A stretch of 64,000 nucleotides of DNA from positions 1,240,001-1,304,000 of the forward strand of contig CP146203.1 of assembly GCA_039995105.1 (NCBI GenBank), given 5' to 3'. The translations under genes and the position numbers were made by a program. Each line of letters starts with the position of its first letter. The first letter of the stretch is position 1. Source of the stretch: Jonesiaceae bacterium BS-20. GTDB taxonomy: Bacteria > Actinomycetota > Actinomycetes > Actinomycetales > Cellulomonadaceae. Below are positions 9,703 to 64,000 of the stretch, piece after piece. The notes beneath the pieces were generated by a model that saw only the letters and a program-made list of their open reading frames with translations, did not search any database and was not told the origin of the DNA.

Positions 9703-10993
9703 TAACCGGCCCACTGAAGACATGACAACTGATCCGGCTAGTGACCAGCCTAAAGACTCGGCAAAGGGGGCGGTGAATCGCCGCGGGTTCTTGGCCAAGA
9801 CCGGGCTCCTGCTAGGTGGGACCATCTTGGCGGGAGCCGGGGTAGGGGCCGCGATTGAGAAACTTCAACCCCAACCCGGCCCTAACCCGCAAGAGGGACC
9901 GCAAACTGAGCCGGCACTGTTTGGAGCAGAGACCGTCCCGTTCTACGGCCCACGCCAGGCCGGTATTGCTACCGCGCCCCAGACCCATGCGGTTGTCTTG
10001 GCGTTCCACGTAGACCCCGCCATTGGCAAGGACGGTGCCAAGCGGCTGCTGCGCATCTTAAGCCAGGACGCCCAACGGTTATCTCAAGGTGAGCCAAGTT
10101 TGACCGATGCCGAGCCTGAACTGGCAACAAACCCGGCCAACCTGACCGTCACCGTTGGGTTGGGGCCAAACTTTTTCGACTACGCCCAGATTAGCCAACA
10201 CAAACCCGGGTGGCTGAAGCAGCTGCCCGGTTACCGGATCGATGCGCTAGAAGAGCAATGGAATGAGGGTGATCTGGTCATCCAACTATGTGGTGATGAT
10301 GAGATCGCAGTGGCTCATGTGCGGCGGATCCTGACCCGGCAGATTGCCAGCTTTGCCCAGGTGAAGTGGGCGCAGCGCGGATTCAAACAGTCCCGCGGTT
10401 CACAAGCTGGTGACACCACCATGCGAAACCTCATGGGACAGGTCGACGGCACGGCAAACCTGCCAGTCACCGACCATGACGAGCTTTTGTGGTGCGGACC
10501 AGACCAGGGGATTTGGGAGGGTGGGACCTCCATGGTGGTGCGCCGCATTGCCATGAACCTCGATACTTGGGACGAGGTTGACCGGATTGCCCGGGAGGAT
10601 TCGGTGGGGCGGACCCTATCCAACGGCGCACCCCTGACCGGAACCAACGAGCATGACGTGCCTGATTTTGATGCGGTCTCTCGGCTAGGGTTCCCCATCA
10701 TCCCGGACTACAGCCACGTGCGTAGGTCACGCCCCGATGATCCCAAACAACGGATCTGGCGGCGAGCCTATAACTACGACGATGCGCCGTTGGATGGGCA
10801 TAGCTCAAACTCCGGTCTGGTATTCATTTCGTTCCAAGCCGATGTTGACCGCCAGTACGCACCCATCCAAGAACGCCTGGCGGAGATGGACGCACTCAAT
10901 GAGTGGACCACACCAATAGGTTCTGCGGTGTTTGCCGTTCTGCCGGGCTGCCAACCCGGACAGTACCTAGGGCAGACGCTCTTGGAGGCCTAG
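9692..10993 (+). CDS. Tat-exported DyP-type haem peroxidase (EfeB-like)
   Basis: A 433-residue dye-decolourising peroxidase. From the GTG at 9692 (AGGAG at 9679-9683) there is a twin-arginine signal, NRRGFLAKTGLLLGG, at about 30-45. The DyP hallmark GQVDG lies in the middle, an SRLGFPII and YSHVRR segment carries the likely proximal haem His, and RRAYNYDD follows. Members oxidise varied substrates with H2O2 or, as EfeB, act in iron uptake. No EfeU/EfeO is adjacent; the partner here is a copper chaperone, so an extracytoplasmic metal/redox role is inferred. Confidence 0.9.
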   Translation: MAIDNRPTEDMTTDPASDQPKDSAKGAVNRRGFLAKTGLLLGGTILAGAGVGAAIEKLQPQPGPNPQEGPQTEPALFGAETVPFYGPRQAGIATAPQTHAVVLAFHVDPAIGKDGAKRLLRILSQDAQRLSQGEPSLTDAEPELATNPANLTVTVGLGPNFFDYAQISQHKPGWLKQLPGYRIDALEEQWNEGDLVIQLCGDDEIAVAHVRRILTRQIASFAQVKWAQRGFKQSRGSQAGDTTMRNLMGQVDGTANLPVTDHDELLWCGPDQGIWEGGTSMVVRRIAMNLDTWDEVDRIAREDSVGRTLSNGAPLTGTNEHDVPDFDAVSRLGFPIIPDYSHVRRSRPDDPKQRIWRRAYNYDDAPLDGHSSNSGLVFISFQADVDRQYAPIQERLAEMDALNEWTTPIGSAVFAVLPGCQPGQYLGQTLLEA

Positions 10994-11002
10994 CCCTTGA
11001 AA

Positions 11003-11039
11003 TGCGGTGCAAGAACGGGCTTCCCCTTCTTGCACCGCA
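11003..11039. terminator. Stem-loop after the DyP gene
   Basis: A 13-bp perfect inverted repeat TGCGGTGCAAGAA / TTCTTGCACCGCA with an 11-nt loop. It begins ten bases after the DyP stop. No clear T-tract follows, so termination strength is uncertain. Confidence 0.55.
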
Positions 11040-11100
11040 CCAGGATTGCTGCTGTGCTCCCCGCCTAGGCCTCCTGCCCAGAGGAATATGCGTACGCAAC

Positions 11101-11436
11101 GTGAGCAGCGACCCTCAAAGCCCTAGGCACGTGCTTACAGCACCATGCACTACAAGCCCGAGCATTCAAATAGTGATCGCGACGGTCATCGTCGTGGTGC
11201 TTGGGGTCAGCATTGCTCGGATCAATTATCAAGCTGGCCGCCAGATGGGTACCCCTTACGCCGTTCCAACCAGCAAGGTGTTTTTGGAGTTCGTTATCTT
11301 GGCTGCCATCAGCACGGTAACGGCCGTTGTACTGCGCGACTCCCTCTCAGAGCCGGCAATTATTGCCTGTGCCGTGGGAACGATCTTGAGCTACGGGATC
11401 GGTTCGATTGTGCACTATCGGAGCACCCACAAATGA
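11101..11436 (+). CDS. Small two-helix membrane protein, unknown function
   Basis: No family recognised. From the GTG at 11101 the product is 111 residues: a polar N-terminus, a hydrophobic helix IQIVIATVIVVVLGVSIA, a short loop, and two closely spaced hydrophobic stretches, FVILAAISTVTAVVL and IIACAVGTILSYGIG. The start is uncertain because the nearest AGAGGA is about 15 bases upstream; a GTG 30 bases further in is an alternative. Its stop overlaps the ATG of the following winged-helix gene (ATGA), so the two are translationally coupled and the membrane protein may be the sensor or target of that regulator. Confidence 0.55.
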   Translation: MSSDPQSPRHVLTAPCTTSPSIQIVIATVIVVVLGVSIARINYQAGRQMGTPYAVPTSKVFLEFVILAAISTVTAVVLRDSLSEPAIIACAVGTILSYGIGSIVHYRSTHK

Positions 11437-11730
11437 GTACGCAACTGGACCCAATCATCCACCCCGCGCACAGGTTAAAAATCTGTGCCATGCTAGCCGC
11501 CGCAACCACCGTGGAGATGTCACTGGTCAAAGACCTAGTCGGCCTGAGCCCCTCGGCCCTGAGTAAGCAGGTGGCCGCCCTGGTTGATGCCTGCTACGTT
11601 ACCCAGACTCGCGCGGAACACGACTCGCGCTACATCTGGCTGAGCCTAAACCAAGACGGGTAAACACGCCTACCGAGGGCACGTCAAAGCCCTCCAGAAA
11701 ATCGTTGCAAGTAGCCAGATCCTGCCATAA
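11433..11730 (+). pseudogene. Winged-helix (MarR/ArsR-like) regulator truncated by a frameshift
   Basis: The intact frame 11433-11663 encodes 76 residues: IIHPAHRLKICAMLAAA, then SLVKDLVGLSPSALSKQVAAL, a recognition helix, and the wing CYVTQTRAEHDSRYIWLSL. It stops at TAA 11661 just after NQDG. Dropping one base there keeps the frame open to the TAA at 11728, reading KHAYRGHVKALQKIVA, the usual last helix of the DNA-binding winged-helix family of about 95-100 residues. The last dimerisation helix is therefore lost by a one-base shift or a sequencing error. The DNA-binding part is complete, so the product may still bind DNA. Confidence 0.7.
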
Positions 11731-11748: not shown

Positions 11749-11784
11749 GCTTCCCGCTGCTGTGCAAGAACAGCAGCGGGAAGC
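11749..11784. terminator. Intrinsic terminator for glgC
   Basis: Perfect 15-bp stem GCTTCCCGCTGCTGT / ACAGCAGCGGGAAGC with a 6-nt loop. AAAAAA immediately to the left gives a U-tract on the leftward glgC transcript; CCTGTTT on the other side could also stop rightward transcription. Confidence 0.88.
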
Positions 11785-11805
11785 CTGTTTCAGGAGCAGA
11801 TAGCA

Positions 11806-13044
11806 CTACTCAATGATGGTGCCCTTAGGGACCACTGTGATGCCTTCATCCGTAACGGTGAACCCGCGGCGTCGGTCTTCTTCCACGTCGACACCGACAC
11901 GGGCCCGTTCAGAAACAATGACGTTCTTATCCAAGATGGCCCGGTGAATCTGTGCGTGACGGTGCACAATGACGTCATCCATGAGAACGGAATCCGAAAC
12001 CGAGGACCACGAGTGCAGACGAACGCCGGGGGAGAGAACCGAGCCAACCACGGTTGCCCCGGAGATCACCACACCGGGTGAGACAATCGAGTCCGCGGCG
12101 TGACCTAGTCGCCCTGGTCCGGCATGCACAAACTTCGCCGGCGCTAAGCCAACGTAGCCGGTGTAAACCGGCCATTCGGAGTTATACAGGTTGAATACCG
12201 GGTTGACCGCAATGAGATCCTTATTGGCCTCAAAGTAAGACTCAATTGTTCCGACATCGCGCCAGTAATCCCGGTCGCGCTCGGTTGACCCGGGTACGTC
12301 ATTATCCTTGAAGTCATAGAAACCAGCCGTGCCACGCTCAACAAAGTACGGGACAATATCGCCGCCCATGTCGTGACGTGAGTCTTCGTTTTCAGAGTCT
12401 TCGGTAACCGCGCGCACCAAGGCATCGGCATTGAAAACGTAGTTACCCATGGACGCAAGAACCTCATCCGGTGCGTCCGGCAGCCCCACTGGTTCTTGTG
12501 GCTTTTCCAAGAAGGCCTTGATGCGTGAGGGGCGTTCGGGGTCAATATCAATAACACCAAACTCTGGTGCCAAGGCGATTGGTTGACGGATACCGGCCAA
12601 GCTCATCTCAGCGCCGGACGCAATGTGTGCATCCACCATCTGGGAGAAATCCATTCGGTACACGTGGTCGGCGCCAACCACAATGACAATATCCGGACGT
12701 TCATCTTCAATAATATTCAGGCACTGATAGATAGCATCCGCGCTACCGAGGTACCAGTGCTTCCCCACACGCTGCTGGGCCGGGACCGGAGCAACAAAGT
12801 TGCCTAGGAGGTGCGACATCCGCCAAGTCTTCGCAATGTGACGGTCAAGAGAGTGCGATTTGTATTGCGTTAAGACCACGATCTGCAGGTAATGGGAATT
12901 CACCAGGTTGGACAGAGCGAAGTCAACCAACCGGTAAATGCCACCGAACGGAACAGCTGGTTTGGCGCGCTGCTTGGTGAGAGGCATGAGCCTCTTGCCC
13001 TCGCCGCCAGCAAGAACAATTGCCAGAACTTTTGGATTTGCCAT
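11806..13044 (-). CDS. glgC: Glucose-1-phosphate adenylyltransferase GlgC
   Basis: Makes ADP-glucose from ATP and glucose-1-phosphate, the committed step of bacterial glycogen synthesis. The 412-residue protein has the nucleotidyltransferase signature [20 protein letters not shown] at residues 11-30 and the substrate region [11 protein letters not shown]. It also has [15 protein letters not shown] and a C-terminal left-handed beta-helix with hexapeptide repeats. Length and motifs match actinobacterial GlgC. It is divergent from glgM across 56 bp, so the promoters share that short gap. Confidence 0.96.
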
Positions 13045-31930: not shown

Positions 31931-32057
31931 GGCCTCTACTCTAGTTCACCCGCCCCGCCCTCTTGGCCATTTGGGGTGAACGCAATCCGGACAACGCCGG
32001 CCAGCCTGCCTGCGCACGAGCAGGTGCCCACTGGCATCACGGTGGCGCAGTATCGCG

Positions 32058-32125
32058 GCGACACAACTTCATAGCGACACAACTTCGCGGTGGCACGGTG
32101 GCTTCACCACCGTGCCACCGCGAAG
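32058..32125. repeat. Direct repeat followed by a 19-bp perfect hairpin
   Basis: GCGACACAACTTC occurs at 32058-32070 and 32074-32086. It runs into a perfect inverted repeat, CTTCGCGGTGGCACGGTGG and its complement (32083-32101 / 32107-32125), with a 5-nt loop. It lies 24 bp beyond the helY stop and probably acts as its terminator although no T-tract is present. Confidence 0.6.
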
Positions 32126-32148
32126 TGGCGAAGCATCAAATCGGTTGG

Positions 32149-35076
32149 TTACACCGAGGAGTATGCCACCACGCCGCGTTTCACCGAGGTGATCGCTTGG
32201 GACGCGGAGCGGCGCAGGGCGGCATTGTCGGTCGCTTGGACAATCTGGTCCAAGACGTCAAGCACCTGCTTACACCAGCGTACGAAGTCGCCGGCGGTAA
32301 GTTCGGTGCCGTGCAGAACCGAGTCCAAGTTACGGCCGCGCACCCACTTGTGCATGGGAACGACCAACCCGAAGTCAAGGTCCTGGGTTTCTTGCAGACG
32401 GTTTGCCTCTTCAAGGTCGGTAAGTCTGGACCAAACCCGCACGGTTTCATCCAAGGCCTTGGCCAGTTTGCCGTCCGGTCCCCCGGGGATCATGACACTG
32501 GTGTCTTCTTCCCGTCTGGAACTGTATAGCAACGTAGAAACCGCGGCCGCCAACTGGGATGGATCCAGTTGTGCCCACACGTCCGTTTGCAGGCACTGAG
32601 CCAGCAGAAGATCATTTTCCGCGTACAGGCGTTTGAGGGACCGCCCAGACTGAGTCACCACAAAGTTGCCGTGGTCATCCGGGGCAAGGTAGTCCAACTC
32701 CCGTAGTACCACGCAGACGCGTTCGAAGACCTTGCCAATGGAACCGGTGCGGCCATCAATCTTGCGCAGTAGTGTGCGGTGATCCTGCTCGAGTTGGCGC
32801 AGACGATGACCCCAACGAGCGTGGTCTTCGCGTTCCGGGCACCCGTGGCACGGATGGGCCTTAAGCGAAGCGCGTAGGTCACGCAGGACCGGGTCATCCT
32901 GTGCGTTAGACCGGCGGCGCGGTGTTACCGAGCCGTCTTCCGAGGTGGGGCGCAGCCCCTCGCCCGTACGGAGCGCATGGGTCAACGCGTGTGAGAGCTG
33001 GCGCCTGTCGGCGGGCTTACGCTCGGAAAATTCCTTGGGCACCCGCACATAACCAATATTGCTCAGCCCGTGTGGCAACTCAGCGGTCGAGACCTGTTTG
33101 ACCCGTCCGTGCTCGGTCACAATGGTGGGCCGGGGTCCGTGGAAATCCTGGTCGTAGCCGCGGGCAATGACCACCCCGTAGCCGGCCGAGCGGCCCGTGG
33201 GCATCTCAATCAGGTCACCGGGACGCAGGTCAATGAGGTCTTGGGTGATCTGGGCGCGGCGCTGTCCAGATACCTGCTGGCTCAGTTCCTTTTCGCGGAC
33301 GGTGATGGCGGCACGAATCTTCATGTACTCGCCAAAGTCCCCGCGAGAGCACTCCATCGCTTCCCGGTAGCCTTCTAGCGCTTCCGTATTTTTAGATGCC
33401 ATCCGAGCGAGGTTGACCACACCTCGGTCAGCCTGGAACTGGGCAAAGGAAGTCTCAAGGATCTCCTTGGCCTTCGCCTTTCCTACCTGGTCAACAAGGT
33501 TAACGGCCATGTTGTAGCTCGGGGCAAAACTGGATTTGAGCGGGTACAACCTTTTCGATGCCAGCCCGGCTAGCGCTATCGGGTCCAGTCCCGGGTGGTC
33601 AACGACCACCGCGTGACCTTCGACGTCGATTCCGCGCCGACCGGCACGTCCGGTCAGCTGGGTGTACTGCCCCGGCGTGATATCAACGTGTCCGGAACCG
33701 TCCCATTTGACCAACTTTTCCAGCACGACGGTGCGGGCCGGCATGTTAATGCCAAGCGCTAGTGTCTCGGTTGCAAAGACCACCTTGATCAGGCCCCGAG
33801 AGAACAGCTCTTCAACGGTTTCCTTGAATAGCGGCAGCATCCCGGCGTGGTGAGCAGCGATTCCATGGGTCAGGCTGTCGAGCCAGCCCCAGTAGCCGAG
33901 GACCTGCAGGTCCTCGGGGGGAATTGAGGAGCATCGAGTTTCTGCGATGATCCGAATTTCTTCTGCCTGTTGCTCGGTTGTCAGGCTCATGCCCGAGGCC
34001 CGGCATTGTGCGACCGCGTCATCGCAGGCGGCTCTTGAGAAAATAAAGTAGATCGCCGGCAAGAGGTCGGCGCGTTCGAGCTCGCGCAGAACCGCGAACC
34101 GTGGTGGGCCGCGTTGTCCGCTGTGTTGGCCTCCCCCGCGGGGCCCGTGTCCGCCACGTCCGCGGTTTTGGTAACCGCGGCGGTCTCGAAACTGCGCGTC
34201 GGATCCGCGGCGCATGTGCGCGAGTAAGTCCGGGTTGATTGGCGGGTTAACGCCGGGGTCGGTGGGATCAACGTGGTGGGCATAGAGGTCTAGCAGGCCG
34301 CCGGGGCTCTCGCCCCGCGATGACGTGATGACGTGCTGCCATAGTGGGACCGGGCGCCGCTCACTGACCACAACGGTGGTTGAGCCGCGCACGACTGAAA
34401 GCCAATCCCCAAATTCCTCGGCGTTTGAAACCGTTGCCGAGAGGGATACCAGTTGCACGGACTGGTCGAGGTGGATAATGACCTCTTCCCAAACTGAGCC
34501 GCGGAACCGGTCAGCCAGGTAGTGAACCTCATCCATGACCACGTAACCGAGGTCAGCTACGGACGAGCTACCCGCGTACAGCATGTTGCGCAGGACCTCG
34601 GTGGTCATGACAACGACTTGTGCGTTCGAGTTAATTGAAGTGTCACCGGTCAGGAGCCCAACGGCATCCGGACCATATTTGCGCACCAGATCATGGTATT
34701 TCTGGTTACTGAGCGCCTTGATCGGGGTAGTGTAGAACGCCTTGCGGCCCTTTGCCAGGGCCATGTGAATGGCGAACTCACCAACGATCGTCTTTCCGGC
34801 CCCCGTTGGTGCAGCAACAAGGACACCATCGCCGGATTCTAGGGCGATGCAGGCTTCAATCTGGAAATCGTCGAGCTCGAAGTCGAACTCTGACCGGAAC
34901 GCCTCTAATTGCACAGATCCGGCGGTTGAGATCTTGCGGGACCGAGCATAACGTTCGGCGGGACTGGGCTCTGCGGGAGCCGCTTTTTGGGTGGAGCGGC
35001 TGGAAGATACTGAAGTTTGCTGGGAAATATTATTCGTGCGGCGCCGTTCACGATGCCGGGAACGCTTTGGTGACAT
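32149..35076 (-). CDS. helY: DEAD/DEAH-box RNA helicase HelY (Ski2/Mtr4-like)
   Basis: A 975-residue superfamily 2 helicase. After a basic, disordered 50-residue N-terminus come Walker A APTGAGKT (residues 89-97), the DEVH box, SAT motif VSLSATVSN, and motif VI QLTGRAGRRGID. The C-terminal part resembles the DSHCT/Ski2-type domain. Around residues 290-325, between the RecA domains, is an Arg/Gly-rich RGG-like insertion. Actinobacterial HelY is thought to act in RNA metabolism. It is the distal gene of the leftward run behind tatC and the lipid kinase. Confidence 0.92.
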   Translation of the reverse strand: MSPKRSRHRERRRTNNISQQTSVSSSRSTQKAAPAEPSPAERYARSRKISTAGSVQLEAFRSEFDFELDDFQIEACIALESGDGVLVAAPTGAGKTIVGEFAIHMALAKGRKAFYTTPIKALSNQKYHDLVRKYGPDAVGLLTGDTSINSNAQVVVMTTEVLRNMLYAGSSSVADLGYVVMDEVHYLADRFRGSVWEEVIIHLDQSVQLVSLSATVSNAEEFGDWLSVVRGSTTVVVSERRPVPLWQHVITSSRGESPGGLLDLYAHHVDPTDPGVNPPINPDLLAHMRRGSDAQFRDRRGYQNRGRGGHGPRGGGQHSGQRGPPRFAVLRELERADLLPAIYFIFSRAACDDAVAQCRASGMSLTTEQQAEEIRIIAETRCSSIPPEDLQVLGYWGWLDSLTHGIAAHHAGMLPLFKETVEELFSRGLIKVVFATETLALGINMPARTVVLEKLVKWDGSGHVDITPGQYTQLTGRAGRRGIDVEGHAVVVDHPGLDPIALAGLASKRLYPLKSSFAPSYNMAVNLVDQVGKAKAKEILETSFAQFQADRGVVNLARMASKNTEALEGYREAMECSRGDFGEYMKIRAAITVREKELSQQVSGQRRAQITQDLIDLRPGDLIEMPTGRSAGYGVVIARGYDQDFHGPRPTIVTEHGRVKQVSTAELPHGLSNIGYVRVPKEFSERKPADRRQLSHALTHALRTGEGLRPTSEDGSVTPRRRSNAQDDPVLRDLRASLKAHPCHGCPEREDHARWGHRLRQLEQDHRTLLRKIDGRTGSIGKVFERVCVVLRELDYLAPDDHGNFVVTQSGRSLKRLYAENDLLLAQCLQTDVWAQLDPSQLAAAVSTLLYSSRREEDTSVMIPGGPDGKLAKALDETVRVWSRLTDLEEANRLQETQDLDFGLVVPMHKWVRGRNLDSVLHGTELTAGDFVRWCKQVLDVLDQIVQATDNAALRRSASQAITSVKRGVVAYSSV

Positions 35077-57460: not shown

Positions 57461-58240
57461 TTACTTGAGTTGGGCTATTCCTTTTCCTTCCAGGGCTTGG
57501 GTGAATCGTACTGAGTCACCGCTGGTTTGGCATACGTGGGCGTGGTGTAGGAGTCGGTCCACGGTCGCGGTGGCTAGGGTTTTGGGCATGAGTTCGTCGA
57601 ATCCGGCTGGGTGTAGGTTGGAGGATATTGCGATTGAGCGCTTCTCGTATGCTGCATCTACGACCCGGTAGAGGCCTTCGGCTGTGTCTTGTGCGACGGG
57701 TAATAGTCCGATGTCATCGAGGATGATGAGGTCTGCTCGTAGGAGGCGTTCGATGGCTTTGGTGACGCTGTCATCGGTGCGGTGGGCTCGGATGAGTTGG
57801 CCTAGGTCTTCGAGCCGGAACCAGGCGACTTTTAGACCTTCTTCAACAGCTTGCTGTCCAAGGGCTTCGAGGAAGAAGCTCTTACCTGTCCCAGATGGTC
57901 CGCAGACCACGAGATTTTCGTGGCGGTGGATCCATTCCAAGGTGCGCAGCCCATTTTGGGTAGGTAGCGGGATTGAAGACAGTGCCGGATCCCAGGCCTC
58001 GAAGGTTTTACCGCTAGGAAACTTCGCTGCTTTGCGGCGGATGGCAAGCATGGAGGCTGCTCGACCTTTGATTTCTTCTGCGAACAAGGCTTTGATGACC
58101 TCGACGGGTTCCCAGCGTTGTGCTTTGGCGGTAGCGATCAGGTCAGGGGCTAACTGGCGGGCATGGGGCATCTTCAGCGATCGCATCATTGCTTCTAGAT
58201 CACTGGGAAGTCCAGCAGCTGGGGTATTGAGTGGATTCAT
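57461..58240 (-). CDS. istB: IS21-family helper ATPase IstB
   Basis: A 259-residue AAA+ ATPase related to DnaC. Walker A is VVCGPSGTGKSFF near residue 113 and Walker B is LIILDDIGLLP near 173. The C-terminal VCQTSGDSVRF is typical of IstB. It assists IstA in target selection and strand transfer. It overlaps the istA stop by four bases (ATGA) and has no premature stops. Confidence 0.95.
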   Translation of the reverse strand: MNPLNTPAAGLPSDLEAMMRSLKMPHARQLAPDLIATAKAQRWEPVEVIKALFAEEIKGRAASMLAIRRKAAKFPSGKTFEAWDPALSSIPLPTQNGLRTLEWIHRHENLVVCGPSGTGKSFFLEALGQQAVEEGLKVAWFRLEDLGQLIRAHRTDDSVTKAIERLLRADLIILDDIGLLPVAQDTAEGLYRVVDAAYEKRSIAISSNLHPAGFDELMPKTLATATVDRLLHHAHVCQTSGDSVRFTQALEGKGIAQLK

Positions 58241-59760
58241 TGTTTCTCCTTTCCAACGGGGTATGTGCTGGTGATAGCAGCCCAGCTGCTGGTCCCTTGA
58301 GTTAAGGACACGTCCTCATTGGCACTGTGGGTAATCGGATTGGGTCTGGTGGAATACAAGATAGAGGCCAGATCATCATGCGCAAAACGCCCATGAACTG
58401 CTGCAGTGCCCAACGCGTGATCGACCGCATCGACACCCGCGATCTTTGATAGTGCAACAGCTTCTGCCATTTTCTGGGTAATGCGTTTGGTACCTACCGC
58501 ACATGCTTCACGCAACCACGTGCCCGCCCCTACACCTATGGCCAAGAACTCAAGCTCAGACGCGCTGCTTGGTCGTAGCGTGTAGTGCCCGGGAATTTTG
58601 TCGACATGTTCAGGAAAATGATCATTATTGATCGCTGGACTACCTGGTGAAGTACTGTGGTGGCGGGCCACTTCCCTGACCCCGTCGGGGCCCAGATGCA
58701 TGATGATGACCTGTTCACTAGGGCCAGTGCCGTGCTGACGGACCAATACCTTTTGCCCAAGCAAGTACGATGGCACTGAATATTGGCCATGGTTAAACGT
58801 GACCATAGGCGTATTAGCTGGCACGGCCCGGGGAACCCCAAACGACACCAAGTGCGGGTCGTCAGGGACCCGGTGTAGGCGTAACACTTCCTCGTTCAAC
58901 ATCGACGCTGGCAGACGTTTGGTCACCCGGTGCTCACGGGTATTAACACGATCCATGAACGACGCACATGCAGCTTCGAGCTCTTCAAAGGAGTCATACT
59001 CTTCACGTAAGTTCGTTGATTTTGGTACGAGATCGGCCTTAGCCAGCTTGACGGAAGCTTCCACCCCACCCTTGGTTGCAGGATCTGCCGGCGCACACGT
59101 CAACACGGTGACCCCGTAATATCGCGCAAAATCAACGGTCTGCAAGTTACGGACCGGAACTCCTGCAATATGAGAGACCGTCACCGTTTTCTCATTATCT
59201 GTCAATACATAAGTAGGGGCTCCACCTAGAATACGAAAGGAACGGTCCAGCGCCCCAAACACCGAAGGCGCTGTTTTGTCCCGCAGCGCGATCACGATCC
59301 GGAACCGTGACCATGCCAACCAAGCCACGAACAAGACCGTTTTAACGCCATCAATGACAGGGCCATCACCAAAGTCGTACTGCAGCCAAAGCCCGGGCTC
59401 CGTGATCCACGGACGGTGTACCCGCGTGTGTCCAAACTGCCAAGCCAAACGCACCTGCTTCACCACACGCCGAGTCGTGCGCTCAGACCCCGTGTACCCT
59501 AACCCAATCAGTTTGCCATGCACAACATCGCTGCGGATCGTCCCGCTGCTACTATCAATCCACCCCTCGATATGAGGCAAAAAATCATCCGTGATCTTTT
59601 CCCGAACCGCCAGCTGGGCAATAGGCCGACCGGCAGCCCGAGCCTCAACATGCTTAGCAACCGTGTGATGGGAACACCCCGCCAGTACGGCCGCACTCCG
59701 AAACGACTGTGTCAGATCGTACGCTTCTAGAATTTCCATGATTTCTCCGTCAGACTTCAT
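58237..59760 (-). CDS. istA: IS21-family transposase IstA
   Basis: A 507-residue transposase. An N-terminal helix-turn-helix (SFRSAAVLAGCSHHTVAKHV) precedes the rve/DDE core. The catalytic acids are probably in WLQYDFGDG, YVLTDNEKTV and KGGVEASVKLAK, and a C-terminal beta-barrel region follows. The ATG start is followed by MKSDGEIMEILEAYDLTQ. The reading frame is complete, so the element probably encodes a working transposase. Confidence 0.94.
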   Translation of the reverse strand: MKSDGEIMEILEAYDLTQSFRSAAVLAGCSHHTVAKHVEARAAGRPIAQLAVREKITDDFLPHIEGWIDSSSGTIRSDVVHGKLIGLGYTGSERTTRRVVKQVRLAWQFGHTRVHRPWITEPGLWLQYDFGDGPVIDGVKTVLFVAWLAWSRFRIVIALRDKTAPSVFGALDRSFRILGGAPTYVLTDNEKTVTVSHIAGVPVRNLQTVDFARYYGVTVLTCAPADPATKGGVEASVKLAKADLVPKSTNLREEYDSFEELEAACASFMDRVNTREHRVTKRLPASMLNEEVLRLHRVPDDPHLVSFGVPRAVPANTPMVTFNHGQYSVPSYLLGQKVLVRQHGTGPSEQVIIMHLGPDGVREVARHHSTSPGSPAINNDHFPEHVDKIPGHYTLRPSSASELEFLAIGVGAGTWLREACAVGTKRITQKMAEAVALSKIAGVDAVDHALGTAAVHGRFAHDDLASILYSTRPNPITHSANEDVSLTQGTSSWAAITSTYPVGKEKQ

Positions 59761-60064
59761 ACAAGGCCTCTTCCTGAGTGGAACTGATGTGACTAGACAT
59801 CAACATCAAACCCCAGGAAGAGGCTCCCGCCGCTTAACCGCAACAGGTGTCAGTACAAAAATGGGCAGATCTCATGGCCACCTATGGGCAATTTACTTGG
59901 CCATCAGCGGGCACTTTCCTGGCCATCTATGGGCAGTTTTTCATGTCCGCTGACAGACAGTGAGGGGACTACCTAATGGAATCGCCATTGACACCACCAA
60001 AATCTATCAACCTAAACGATGTTCCGGGACGCATAAGAACTATGTCCTGCTACATCACAATCAT

Positions 60065-60087
60065 CGGGCTAGCGGGATTCGAACCCG
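60065..60087 (-). other. 3' tRNA fragment, probable attachment-site scar
   Basis: On the minus strand the segment reads as a perfect T-arm (stem CGGG/CCCG, loop TTCGAAT) followed by CTAGCCC and a G, i.e. the 3' acceptor strand of a tRNA. No anticodon arm or 5' half precedes it. Such fragments are the duplicated core left when an element integrates into the 3' end of a tRNA gene. For a leftward tRNA the element would extend to the right, towards the XRE/ImmA/HIRAN genes, with the intact tRNA beyond 64 kb. The tRNA identity is unknown. Confidence 0.6.
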
Positions 60088-60416: not shown

Positions 60417-61340
60417 CTACCGCTGCATCTCGTCCCACATCTCAGGTGTGGTTACGAGCACTTGGGAACCATTCATCATTGTGTGCGCGACTAGATCAAG
60501 ACCGCCATCCATTGCCTTGGCTACTCTTTTCGCTTGCCCCTTGGCGATGTAGCCAATCTTTGAAGCCCCCGAAGACGTCATCACCGCGATCGCGTTCGCG
60601 TCATGGTCGTTCTCTGGCTCCCTCTTCAACTTGAGCATTTGTCCGTCACCCCGCTCAACTTGGCCTGCCTTGTAGTGAGACCTGCCGACGATTCTAGAAC
60701 CATAAATATCCCAGTGACGCAGATGTATGCTCTTTGGATCAACACCACGTCCATCAGGTAAAGCTACAGCAAGACCGCTTCCACCCCGAACAACTCGAAA
60801 TGCTGGCATCGTTTCGCCACTTGCCAGCAAGGCGTCGAGTGCCGCTTTGGTTTCTTCTATGTTTAGGATCCCCGCGCGAAGCTGCTTCACCGTCTTGCCC
60901 GCCCGAGCGGCACGCGCCCTTTCCTCATCGTAGTATCGAGCACGTATCTCCATCTCGATTCCTTGATCCCTAGGGAACTTGCGATACCGCTCGCGGACTT
61001 CAATGTCTGGCACGTCTGGCGGTCCAACTTTCGGCGCTTCACTTCGCGCCATTTGTTCGCTCCTCAATAATTGGCGCTCATGTGCGATCTTAGCGTCTAA
61101 AAAGTCCATTTTTGCCTGAACTACGTCGCGTTCGGACTGCTCCACCGCAGCTTTAAGCCTGAGTGTTTCGGCTCGCAACCGCAACTGTTCGACAGTTGGC
61201 CTTGTTGCGATTTGCAAGGTGATCGTTCCGAGTAAAGCAAGTATCCCGATAACGAAAATAGCAGTAACACCCGAGCCAGAACCAGCCAATAGCATTACGG
61301 CGCTAACGCCGTAGAGAATCATAAACAAGCAACCACGCAC
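60417..61340 (-). CDS. Membrane-anchored coiled-coil protein with HIRAN domain
   Basis: A 307-residue protein from the GTG at 61340 (GGAG five bases upstream). Two N-terminal membrane segments (FMILYGVSAVMLLAG and GVTAIFVIGILALLGTITLQI) precede a coiled coil at about 48-100 (RLRAETLRLKAAVEQSERDV). A linker of unknown fold follows, then a HIRAN-like domain at about 205-290. That domain has HLRHWDIYGSRIVGRSHY, LKREPENDHDANAIAV and KIGYIAKGQAKRVAKAM. HIRAN domains bind DNA 3' ends in Rad5/HLTF proteins. A membrane-tethered version beside an XRE/ImmA pair is unusual; function unknown. Confidence 0.75.
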   Translation of the reverse strand: MRGCLFMILYGVSAVMLLAGSGSGVTAIFVIGILALLGTITLQIATRPTVEQLRLRAETLRLKAAVEQSERDVVQAKMDFLDAKIAHERQLLRSEQMARSEAPKVGPPDVPDIEVRERYRKFPRDQGIEMEIRARYYDEERARAARAGKTVKQLRAGILNIEETKAALDALLASGETMPAFRVVRGGSGLAVALPDGRGVDPKSIHLRHWDIYGSRIVGRSHYKAGQVERGDGQMLKLKREPENDHDANAIAVMTSSGASKIGYIAKGQAKRVAKAMDGGLDLVAHTMMNGSQVLVTTPEMWDEMQR

Positions 61341-61393: not shown

Positions 61394-61762
61394 CTAGACA
61401 GACTGTAACTGGGTTTGCCGCAATTCTACGAGGTATTGGGATACGCCGAGTTCTTTCGCTATTGCCCCGGGGTGAGGGTGGAGGGATTCGGCAATGGCGT
61501 ACTCAACCGGGTCTACCAGCAGCCTCGCGGCGAAACTGTTTGCCTGGCGCTCATAGATCTCGTCATCGTGCTCAGCGCCATGGGAGTGCCCATAGTAGGC
61601 ATACCCCAGTTCATGGGCAATGGTCTCGCGCTGCCTGCGCTCAGTTATTCCAGAGTCCACGAGAATATTCCCGCCAGACAATAGCAATCCGTCATATTCG
61701 GCAAGCGGCAAGAACTCCACGTGGAATCCTTGCCGCCTTGCCAAAGTGATGAGATCGATCAA
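61394..61762 (-). CDS. ImmA/IrrE-family metallopeptidase-like protein with altered active site
   Basis: A 122-residue protein starting at a TTG (61762) that overlaps the upstream stop as TTGA. The fold matches ImmA/IrrE: MIDLITLARRQGFHVEF, GGNILVDSGITERRQRETIAHELG, and DEIYERQANSFAARLLVD with the later Glu ligand. The zinc motif HEXXH reads His50-Glu-Leu-Gly-Tyr54, so the second His is Tyr (codon TAT, one base from CAT). Unless another residue substitutes, peptidase activity should be impaired. ImmA proteins normally cleave the XRE repressor encoded next to them, which is the neighbour here. Confidence 0.85.
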   Translation of the reverse strand: MIDLITLARRQGFHVEFLPLAEYDGLLLSGGNILVDSGITERRQRETIAHELGYAYYGHSHGAEHDDEIYERQANSFAARLLVDPVEYAIAESLHPHPGAIAKELGVSQYLVELRQTQLQSV

Positions 61763-61941
61763 AGGGCTTCGTCCTCCTCGTCTGCGTCCGGATGCTTCTT
61801 GAGTGCAGGGAATGCGTAACGCGCCGGCGCAGTCGCCATTAGCTCTAGGCCGTCAGCGAAGGCCTGAGCGCGTATCGCCTCTGGGATGTTCCTGAGGACA
61901 CCGATGGTCGCAGCTGCAACTTCTTCCTCCCATGGGGACAT
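61759..61941 (-). CDS. Downstream part of the XRE gene in a shifted frame
   Basis: A 60-codon ATG frame, MSPWEEEVAAATIGVLRNIP, then EAIRAQAFADGLELMATAPA and an acidic tail, ending in a TGA that overlaps the ImmA start. It overlaps the last 97 bp of the XRE ORF in another frame. Its helical content looks like the C-terminal domain of phage-type XRE repressors, so it is more likely the missing second half of that protein than a separate gene. Confidence 0.5.
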   Translation of the reverse strand: MSPWEEEVAAATIGVLRNIPEAIRAQAFADGLELMATAPARYAFPALKKHPDADEEDEAL

Positions 61942-62192
61942 CTTCGATTCGATTCCCCTTGGAGATCCACTACGTTGAGAATCTTCACAAGATTCGCCGT
62001 TTGGGTGCGCCGTTCGCCTGACTCAAGATTTCGGATCGTCCCGATTCCTACGTCGGCACGCTCGGCAAGTTGAGCCTGGGTAAGTCCGAGAGCATTGCGC
62101 GCCTCACGAAACTCATTCGCCAGAGACAACAAGTCTTGCTCTCGCAGCGACTCGGCGAAAATCTCTTGTTGACTAATTTTGTTCTCTTTCAT
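61845..62192 (-). CDS. XRE-family repressor-like regulator, probably frameshifted
   Basis: As read, 115 residues with a clear XRE helix-turn-helix at about 25-80 (FREARNALGLTQAQLAERADVGIGTIRNLESGERRTQTANLVKIL). After LNVVDLQGE the sequence turns into Arg/Ser-rich text (NRRCPHGRKKLQ) unlike a protein. The adjacent frame continues sensibly as MSPWEEEVAAATIGVL to 61759. A one-base change near the GGGG at about 61963-61966 would restore a repressor of about 144 residues. The helix-turn-helix is intact. It is divergent from a second XRE gene across a repeat-rich operator region. Confidence 0.7.
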   Translation of the reverse strand: MKENKISQQEIFAESLREQDLLSLANEFREARNALGLTQAQLAERADVGIGTIRNLESGERRTQTANLVKILNVVDLQGESNRRCPHGRKKLQLRPSVSSGTSQRRYALRPSLTA

Positions 62193-62289
62193 AATGAAAG
62201 CACAGCGTGTTGACGCTCGGAGTCAACATTTATACACATGTTGACTTTCACGGTCGGCTTTTGCAGTCAACACCACCCAGCTTGTTGAC
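62167..62289. promoter_or_regulatory. Six-copy TGTTGAC/GTCAACA operator array
   Basis: The heptamer TGTTGAC occurs on the plus strand at 62167, 62208, 62239 and 62283, and its complement GTCAACA at 62222 and 62266. 62208-62228 forms a palindrome TGTTGAC-N7-GTCAACA. 62239-62272 is a wider inverted pair (N20), and 62266-62289 an everted pair (N10). Several copies contain TTGAC, the -35 consensus core, so a bound regulator would block promoters. The array covers the gap between the two divergent XRE genes and extends into the first codons of the leftward one. Confidence 0.75.
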
Positions 62290-62290
62290 T

Positions 62291-62506
62291 ATGAACAACA
62301 ACAAAAACACAATTGGTCCTTCTCTCCTAAGGTTGCGAGAGACAGTGAGCATGAGTCAGGTGGAAGCCGCTCAAGCAATTGGAACTCACAGTTCCTACCT
62401 TTCTAAAGTTGAAGCCGGTAACGTCACTGTTACCTCGAAGTGGGTTGGGAACGCTTCTTCCGCCCTAGGTAAGGCTGTTTCAGCGAGGTCTAAAGTAACC
62501 CTCTGA
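62291..62506 (+). CDS. Small XRE-family regulator
   Basis: A 71-residue protein that is mostly a helix-turn-helix: GPSLLRLRETVSMSQVEAAQAIGTHSSYLSKVEAGNVTVT. The ATG at 62291 immediately follows the last TGTTGAC copy, so its ribosome-binding site is unclear. Divergent from the XRE/ImmA/HIRAN run, it could be a Cro-like counter-regulator reading the same operators. Confidence 0.7.
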   Translation: MNNNKNTIGPSLLRLRETVSMSQVEAAQAIGTHSSYLSKVEAGNVTVTSKWVGNASSALGKAVSARSKVTL

Positions 62507-62875: not shown

Positions 62876-62937
62876 TGCTCTCGATAGCGTTTGCGCTCGT
62901 ACAATGATTTGAGACAGTGCTTAGGAGAATCGGGTTT

Positions 62938-63228
62938 ATGTCCAGTCGTCGTAAGTTTAGTGCGGAGTTTAAGGCAGATGCGGTTGAGTTGGTGATTTCT
63001 TCTGGCCGACCAATTGTTCAGGTTGCTGAGGAAATTGGTGTTAGTGATGGTTCGTTGGGGAATTGGGTCAGGGCTTGGAAAAAAGAGCATCCTGACGCTG
63101 GTGGTGATGACCGTGGGCCGGTTGAGTGGGCTCAGTACAAGGCCTTAGAAGCTGAGAATGCGGAACTGAAGAGGGAGATCGCATTTTTGGGAAAAGTCAG
63201 CGCCTTCTTTGCCGCGAAGCAACAGTAA
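62938..63228 (+). CDS. IS3-family transposase OrfA
   Basis: A 96-residue helix-turn-helix protein: MSSRRKFSAEFKADAVELV, VAEEIGVSDGSLGNWVRAWKKE, then a leucine-zipper-like segment ALEAENAELKREIAFLGK. AGGAG at 62922-62926 is somewhat far from the ATG at 62938. It is the DNA-binding part of the OrfAB transposase made by frameshifting. Confidence 0.93.
   Translation: MSSRRKFSAEFKADAVELVISSGRPIVQVAEEIGVSDGSLGNWVRAWKKEHPDAGGDDRGPVEWAQYKALEAENAELKREIAFLGKVSAFFAAKQQ
63189..63195 (+). promoter_or_regulatory. -1 ribosomal frameshift heptamer G GGA AAA
   Basis: In the orfA frame the bases read TTG GGA AAA GTC; G-GGA-AAA is an X-XXY-YYZ slippery site. Slipping back one base after it gives codons from 63195 that stay open into orfB (SQRLLCREATVKDYFDFVAA). 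Confidence 0.75.
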
Positions 63229-64000
63229 AAGATTACTTCGATTTCGTCGCTGCTCAGAAGGCTTATTTCCCGGTTGCCTGGATGTGTCGCAAACTTGGTA
63301 TCTCTCGGGCCTCATATTATCGGCGGCTTCACCCGAAGCCAAAGACTGCAACCCAGGTTCGTCATGAAGAGTTAGAGACCCTTGTGACTACGGAGTTCCA
63401 TGATGCCAAGGGTATGGCGGGCCGCGATCAACTCACGTTGATATTAGGCAATAAAGGGGTCAAGATCAGTGCCGGCACAGTCGGTTCAATTATGGCTGAT
63501 CACAAGCTTGAAGCAGTGCGGAAGCGGGCTTGGAAGAAGACCACGGCCCCTGATCCTGATGCCCGAACCGAGCATATTAAGAACCATATGCTTGACGCCG
63601 ATGGCAATCGCGACTTCTCTTCAACGGTGCCCGGGACAAGGCTTTGTGGCGATATAACCTATCTTCGCACTGGGTCAGGGTGGTTGTATTTGGCCACCGT
63701 TATTGACCTAGCAAACGGCAAGGTAATTGGTTGGTCAATGGACAGCCATATGCGACGAGATCTTGTTATTCAAGCCCTAGCGATGGCCAGAGATCACGGA
63801 CAGTTGGATCCCAATGGAGCCATATTTCACTCAGATCGTGGCTCACAATACACTTCGAGCGAATTTCAGAAATGGTGCAAAAACAACAAGGTCACTCAGT
63901 CCATGGGAGAGACGGGGGTGGCTTGGGACAATGCTGTGGCTGAATCATTCTTTTCGCATTTTAAGACTGAAATGTATCATCAACGGTCGTTCCCCAATCA
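63195..64000 (+). CDS. IS3-family transposase OrfB (partial, -1 frame)
   Basis: The frame is open from the slippery site to the window edge, about 268 codons. It reads AYFPVAWMCRKLGISRASYYRRL (HTH_21-like) and then the rve/DDE core. The first Asp is in GDITYLRTGSGWLYLATVIDL, the second in IFHSDRGSQYTS, and the Glu in DNAVAESFFSHFKTEM. All three catalytic acids are present; the last about 30 residues lie outside the window. There is no independent strong start, so production as an OrfAB fusion is likely. Confidence 0.92.

Follow-up and report, generated by a model that had tools for sequence, protein, structure and literature searches.

Six exact copies of the word TGTTGAC lie within 123 bp at the start of two divergent HTH genes, in an array that is real, non-random and operator-like. 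We consider that it probably serves as operator for an XRE immunity repressor of the ImmR/SinR-like kind, carried by an integrated element that would by now be a decayed prophage or ICE remnant. The array is dense and its pairing is unique in the genome, and its half-sites are identical while the spacers of the two N10 pairs differ by eye. The placement between divergent HTH genes and the resemblance of the XRE protein to the DNA-binding domain of ImmR point in the same direction. Further support comes from XRE-ImmA neighbours that recur in relatives and phages, often followed by an integrase, and from the SinR, RcoLS20 and ImmR precedents as described in the parts of the literature available to us. 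Coordinates refer to the window, which is the whole stretch of 64,000 nucleotides analysed.

Arrangement of the heptamer array

TGTTGAC or its complement GTCAACA matches exactly at six sites in 62167-62289, four on the plus strand (starting at 62167, 62208, 62239 and 62283) and two on the minus strand (62222 and 62266), as a sequence-only reading of this DNA had reported. Exact words also define the pairs. Copies 2 and 3 form an inverted pair with N7 spacing (62208-62228), copies 3 and 4 a first everted pair with N10 (62222-62245), copies 4 and 5 an inverted pair with N20 (62239-62272) and copies 5 and 6 a second everted pair with N10 (62266-62289). The sequence-only reading named all three geometries and counted the N10 arrangement, which occurs twice, only once. 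It also placed the array between the two genes, which are indeed divergent, but copy 1 (62167-62173, plus strand) lies within the predicted first codons of the XRE ORF (ATG at 62192, minus strand) and the array is not wholly intergenic. At the other end copy 6 (62283-62289) stops one base short of the Cro-like ATG at 62291. The two N10 pairs stand 44 bp apart and their spacers agree at one of ten positions by eye, with identical half-sites; five of the six copies extend to TGTTGACT. The sequence-only reading overlooked the second N10 pair, the overlap of TTGAC with the -35 box, the tRNA-Pro repeat and the signs of decay, all described below.

A possible degenerate half-site, AACAACA (62297-62303, minus strand; five of seven positions shared with GTCAACA in an alignment that is suggestive only), falls in the Cro-like ORF and mirrors copy 2 about 62255.5. 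The half-sites may then form one 96-bp dyad platform (62208-62303, N7-N10-N20-N10-N7 about 62255.5, its final half-site being degenerate); a higher-order oligomer of the repressor would bind this platform as a whole and wrap or loop both divergent promoters. We regard this elaboration as tentative and on balance unlikely. At 62255.5, 27 of 48 pairs match, a dyad that is suggestive only because at least 27 pairs also match at five other even and five odd centres among the 63,880 of each kind in the window. Such a 96-bp dyad operator geometry is not described in those parts of the literature on precedents that were at hand.

Density and genome-wide counts

The density of the array had been called far greater than chance, and Markov simulations, a scan of 130-bp stretches and the unique pair patterns all agree. 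When the 123 bp were simulated 30,000 times with a first-order Markov model, 17 runs reached four copies of a 7-mer and none went beyond four; among 20,000 simulations of the 240-bp stretch one reached five copies of a 7-mer and none six. A 7-mer occurs at least five times in 130 bp only at the array, among all such stretches of the window. Next in density in the window comes CGGTGGC, with four copies within 130 bp near 31991-32169.

The heptamer itself is common: the 3,529,542 bases of the genome contain it 716 times exactly and the reversed control 392 times. By arithmetic, about 0.025 copies are expected per 123 bp. Such abundance had been named beforehand as a reason to doubt the array, and it holds for the word and not for the paired array. 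The 64-kb window contains 16 heptamers against a shuffled mean of 10.1; since 6 of 100 shuffles reach 16, the excess in the window is one of clustering and not of count. GTCAACA-N10-TGTTGAC has two exact places in the genome, both in the array, and one more with a single mismatch; with up to two mismatches it has 33 places versus 20 for the control. TGTTGAC followed by GTCAACA after 0 to 30 bases occurs at four places (control 0), two of them in the array and the others an identical N28 pair found twice elsewhere. The three-word pattern is found nowhere else in this genome. In the locus around the array (L038) the word occurs as the array cluster plus three single copies. A genome match of 27 bp was also found (locus L002).

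Genes flanking the array

The expectation of XRE, ImmA and HIRAN genes opposite a small HTH gene was confirmed by Pfam domains. On the minus strand lie an XRE-family HTH ORF, the candidate repressor (61845-62192; PF01381, E=3.9e-12), an ImmA-like peptidase ORF (61394-61762; PF06114, E=2e-12) and a HIRAN-domain ORF (60417-61340; PF08797, E=1.8e-14). The Cro-like HTH ORF of 71 aa (62291-62506, plus strand) matches PF13560 at E=2.7e-6, a marginal match of 28 bits against a cut-off of 27. The cassette has the feature of ImmR/ImmA-type systems, an XRE repressor gene adjoining an ImmA-like peptidase gene (PF01381, PF06114), and its divergent regulatory region holds a repeated word that would be the repressor site. 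Among structures the XRE N-terminus matches 8tac best (DBP48, E=2.8e-5). The second match is 7t8i, the ICEBs1 ImmR DNA-binding domain (E=1.4e-4), and to that extent the proposed likeness to ImmR stands.

The XRE ORF stops 82 bp ahead of the ImmA start. A second frame is open from about 62022 and ends in a 60-aa ORF with an acidic tail (61759-61941, minus strand; without a Pfam or PHROG family) whose stop overlaps the ImmA start. In several loci of relatives the regulator gene likewise carries an acidic tail and either overlaps the start of ImmA or stops no more than about 12 bp from it. Judging from this arrangement, the 60-aa ORF probably encodes the C-terminal portion of the XRE repressor, which a frameshift seems to have split. 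The alternatives to a frameshift are a sequencing error or two true genes, and third-position G+C does not distinguish the frames after 61941. A search for relatives of the 60-aa ORF gave one other match among 396 genomes (E=0.0086), which was rejected as a chance match by its context. Because the repressor frame looks split, present-day activity is doubtful.

Probable operator function and candidate promoters

If the array is an operator, each TGTTGAC(T) would be one half-site for an HTH domain, and the N7 pair and both N10 pairs would be occupied by the repressor as dimers or tetramers. Bound repressor would mask the promoter of the repressor/ImmA/HIRAN operon as well as that of the divergent Cro-like gene; occupation of the first N10 pair would suffice to cover both predicted promoters. 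Cleavage of the repressor by ImmA, on the precedent of ICEBs1, would free both. Some of the evidence runs against this reading. The XRE protein has no orthologue and the sites have no matching relative in the searched sets, none of 28 related upstream regions has any exact 7-mer four times (a weak test), the same half-site is used at a TetR-type divergon of other genomes of the family, the promoter scan is unconvincing and the repressor frame is split. The multi-state switch of the lambda kind proposed by the sequence-only reading is an analogy only: two HTH genes are present beside the array as in the CI/Cro comparison, graded affinities and competition of two proteins find no support, and five of the six copies share the same 8-mer.

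Only two -10-like hexamers lie between the start codons away from the ATGs, and both fall in the first N10 spacer. TATAAA (62229-62234, minus strand; five of six positions by consensus match only) is the candidate -10 of the XRE operon, and TATACA (62231-62236, plus strand; four of six, with a spacer of 15 to the TTGACG of copy 2) a weak candidate for the Cro-like gene. CATAAT is a better plus-strand -10-like hexamer but overlaps the XRE start. A consensus promoter scan returned one match against 1.6 expected, none convincing.

TTGAC is also the core of the sigma-70 -35 box. The strongest rival to the operator reading holds that the words are mainly -35 boxes and the array a set of overlapping promoters. 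Three of the six copies have a -10-like hexamer of four or five matches 15-17 bp on (62167 with CATAAT at 15, 62208 with TATACA at 15 and 62283 with CACAAT at 17), but the other three have none of even four matches. The spacer is 15 bp in two of these three candidates, and transcription from the third would begin within the Cro-like ORF. In the text seen of PMC7344957, a consensus for putative promoters of Pectobacterium phage CB7 contains exact TGTTGAC followed by TATAAT. A promoter has no need, however, of inverted words paired at a repeated N10 spacing, and we hold this reading to be quite unlikely as the main explanation, although some copies may serve both as operator and as -35 box.

Reader of the sites

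The sites could instead be read by the Cro-like HTH protein alone or by a host regulator and not by the XRE protein, which we think unlikely. The Cro-like ORF does encode an HTH protein adjoining the array, and 16 of the 220 other genomes of the family have TGTTGAC/GTCAACA pairs at a TetR-type divergon. These pairs have N5 and N11 spacing, however, neither of which occurs in the array, and in the genome that carries the array the three-word pattern is confined to it. The two regulators of phage lambda share operator sites, and the XRE and Cro-like proteins may do likewise.

In the family as a whole the array pattern is present in 17 of 221 genomes including this one, and the 16 others share one conserved divergon (loci L092-L104 and L106-L108) whose N5 and N11 pairs apparently are its operator. 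A TetR domain was detected in both divergon loci checked (L098 and L106). The divergon was rejected as a relative of the array on its spacing and its TetR regulator. Because it uses the same half-site, the word does not identify its reader.

The integrated element and its decay

A 23-bp repeat at 60064-60086, identical to the 3' part of tRNA-Pro(GGG), forms one boundary of the element. The second copy lies outside the window at genome positions 1309759-1309781, within the tRNA-Pro(GGG) gene (1309756-1309832); in locus L038 the repeat copy of the window and the tRNA gene are at 2065-2087 and 11757-11833. The two copies are identical at 23 of 23 bp and 9,695 bp apart, with no third match at E<=0.001. 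A direct repeat of a tRNA 3' end bounding the element is the feature of tRNA-integrated elements, and the repeats mark an integrated element of about 9.7 kb that extends past the window. They enclose the cassette and the array together with the Cro-like gene, IS3-like ORFs, two further IS copies and an IstB-like gene. An IS21-type pair is located just outside the element (57461-59760).

The IS3-like transposase ORFs adjoin the array side of the element (62917-64000, plus strand; 62917-63228 and 63282 onward; PF01527 and rve). Beyond the window two near-identical IS copies in the same orientation (L038:6505-7815 and 10225-11536) flank the IstB-like gene segment; their compared 300-nt ends are identical and their lengths differ by at least one base. 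The rve matches in the element belong to insertion sequences. No phage integrase was detected between the repeats among the ORFs scanned, which cover part of the small ORFs, and on this ground, with that coverage, the element is called a remnant. The HIRAN ORF is 330 bp from the repeat, the position at which a second set of such genes in the genome carries its integrase.

The array might then be a relic, a former operator now unbound in a dying element. The split repressor frame, the lack of an integrase among the scanned ORFs and the insertion sequences in the element would all fit. That the six words have stayed identical between differing spacers points to a constraint that is recent or still acting, and we consider a relic improbable.

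Relatives and viral arrays

The second set lies at about 3464.3-3467.1 kb of the same genome (L037, G000:C1:3462000-3473000) and comprises an HTH gene (PF13443, E=1.5e-9), ImmA, a HIRAN-like gene whose match (E=6.9e-5) falls short of the Pfam cut-off and, after these, a tyrosine integrase (PF00589, E=1.3e-21). The heptamer is absent from this 11-kb stretch. Relatives of ImmA with 30-48% identity are present in 32 of the 395 other genomes that make up the order sample and in 19 phage records, of which 16 are from Corynebacterium, 2 from Microbacterium and 1 from Pasteurella phages. One plasmid also matched ImmA, and viral contigs gave no match. These relatives suggest an actinobacterial host. 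An HTH domain was detected in the relatives L009 (below cut-off), L014, L015, L016 and L037.

Six loci in genome contigs show HTH-only likeness to the XRE protein (27-55% identity over 32-74 residues) and viral contigs gave seven short HTH matches. At E<=1e-5 the XRE protein has matches in 17 of 394 class genomes including its own, the best other at 2.2e-7 and 35%, and none in phages or plasmids. The Cro-like protein has one match in phages (E=3e-3) and none in viral contigs. The genus sample consists of this genome only. No relative with the same XRE or the same sites was found in the searched genomes, viral contigs, phages and plasmids.

Upstream regions were compared for 23 of 29 ImmA loci (L008-L036), L037 and four phages, 28 in all; L033 (a 372-aa ORF matched both XRE and ImmA) and L023, L028, L029, L031 and L032 (no upstream ORF by the selection rule) were left out. 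None of the 28 has any exact 7-mer in four or more copies (maximum three), against six copies in the array. At the 6-mer level L088 (0.047) and L089 (0.030) fall under 0.05, which is unsurprising among 28. The comparison is weak because the rule for the upstream ORF chose non-XRE-like ORFs in several loci (e.g. L011, L020, L021, L027 and L036), starts were assigned mechanically and exact words miss degenerate operators.

A pattern search for the array returned 14 viral stretches. Three dense arrays among them sit by VRR-NUC, helicase and VapE-like genes and were rejected as operator relatives; ten more were rejected with no XRE context recognised. The domains beside viral arrays were checked for L060, and L057 lies outside the ten examined. 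Viral TGTTGAC(A) arrays, tandem and inverted, include L056:11124-11423, L060:2474-2651 and L063:957-1110 and also L139, L186, L203 and others among the matches listed; some lie beside VRR-NUC, SNF2-type helicase or VapE-like genes and they are possibly iterons.

That the words in the window are replication iterons is highly improbable: among the matches listed, 13 of 120 viral loci have at least five copies in 250 bp, homologues of helicase, VRR-NUC or VapE lie no more than 3.5 kb from three of these 13 and L056, L060 and L063 are further dense arrays beside such genes, but many viral arrays step in tandem by 8-12 bp, the window array has no such steps and a Pfam scan recognised no replication gene beside it.

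Comparison with known systems

The mycobacteriophage L5-type operators and stoperators are, in the sections of PMC9283540 that we drew on, 13-bp asymmetric sites spread over the genome and bound by a monomer with two domains. The array resembles them as a short word in many copies for a predicted immunity repressor. It falls outside the L5 type with a 7-bp word (8 bp when extended) that is paired and confined to one cluster.

Phages phi16, Footloose, IME1320_01 and SamW share the order of regulator, ImmA-like gene, one or two genes and integrase, with opposite-facing genes. Unlike the array, their upstream regions have no exact 7-mer at four or more copies. The two genes that open the IME1320_01 cassette are annotated as hypothetical, and the Footloose regulator is annotated as HTH yet has no Pfam match.

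ICEBs1 of Bacillus subtilis has six ImmR sites in the regulatory regions of two promoters, according to the portion of PMC8960796 that we could use. As far as that source and PMC6540685 were available, the two systems share an XRE repressor with an ImmA peptidase, a divergent regulatory region and a similar DNA-binding domain. They differ in that an integrase was not found in the element described here and a HIRAN gene is present. The likeness to ICEBs1 rests on genes, site number and DNA-binding domain and not on site sequence.

The feature of SinR and RcoLS20 sites, a short word in several copies of mixed orientation, is present here at predicted promoters, with six copies (four plus, two minus). 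SinR of B. subtilis binds the 7-bp word GTTCTYT in many copies and orientations with a preference for inverted pairs (PMC3163267, in the extracts seen). A 7-bp word, several copies and mixed orientation are common to both, but SinR is, in those extracts, a tetrameric host biofilm regulator and its word differs from that of the array. RcoLS20 of plasmid pLS20 recognises a motif of 8 bp, with seven and four copies around divergent promoters that overlap (PMC4207663, from the passages accessible). It shares with the array a short word in many copies at the divergent promoters of a mobile element. It differs, in the same passages, in its word CAGTGAAA, in having two operators 75 bp apart that are mostly of one orientation each and in looping, where the array is one 123-bp cluster.

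Most likely the operator type is a known one and the site sequence is new among relatives; TGTTGAC together with repressor and operator was not found in any text of the literature consulted. The weight of the case is limited by the decay of the element and the want of relatives. For repressors of the XRE/ImmA/HIRAN class the array supplies a precisely defined candidate recognition word, TGTTGAC(T), in a compact fragment. If the XRE protein binds the array, the SinR and RcoLS20 mode of short words in mixed orientation would extend to the XRE/ImmA/HIRAN class.
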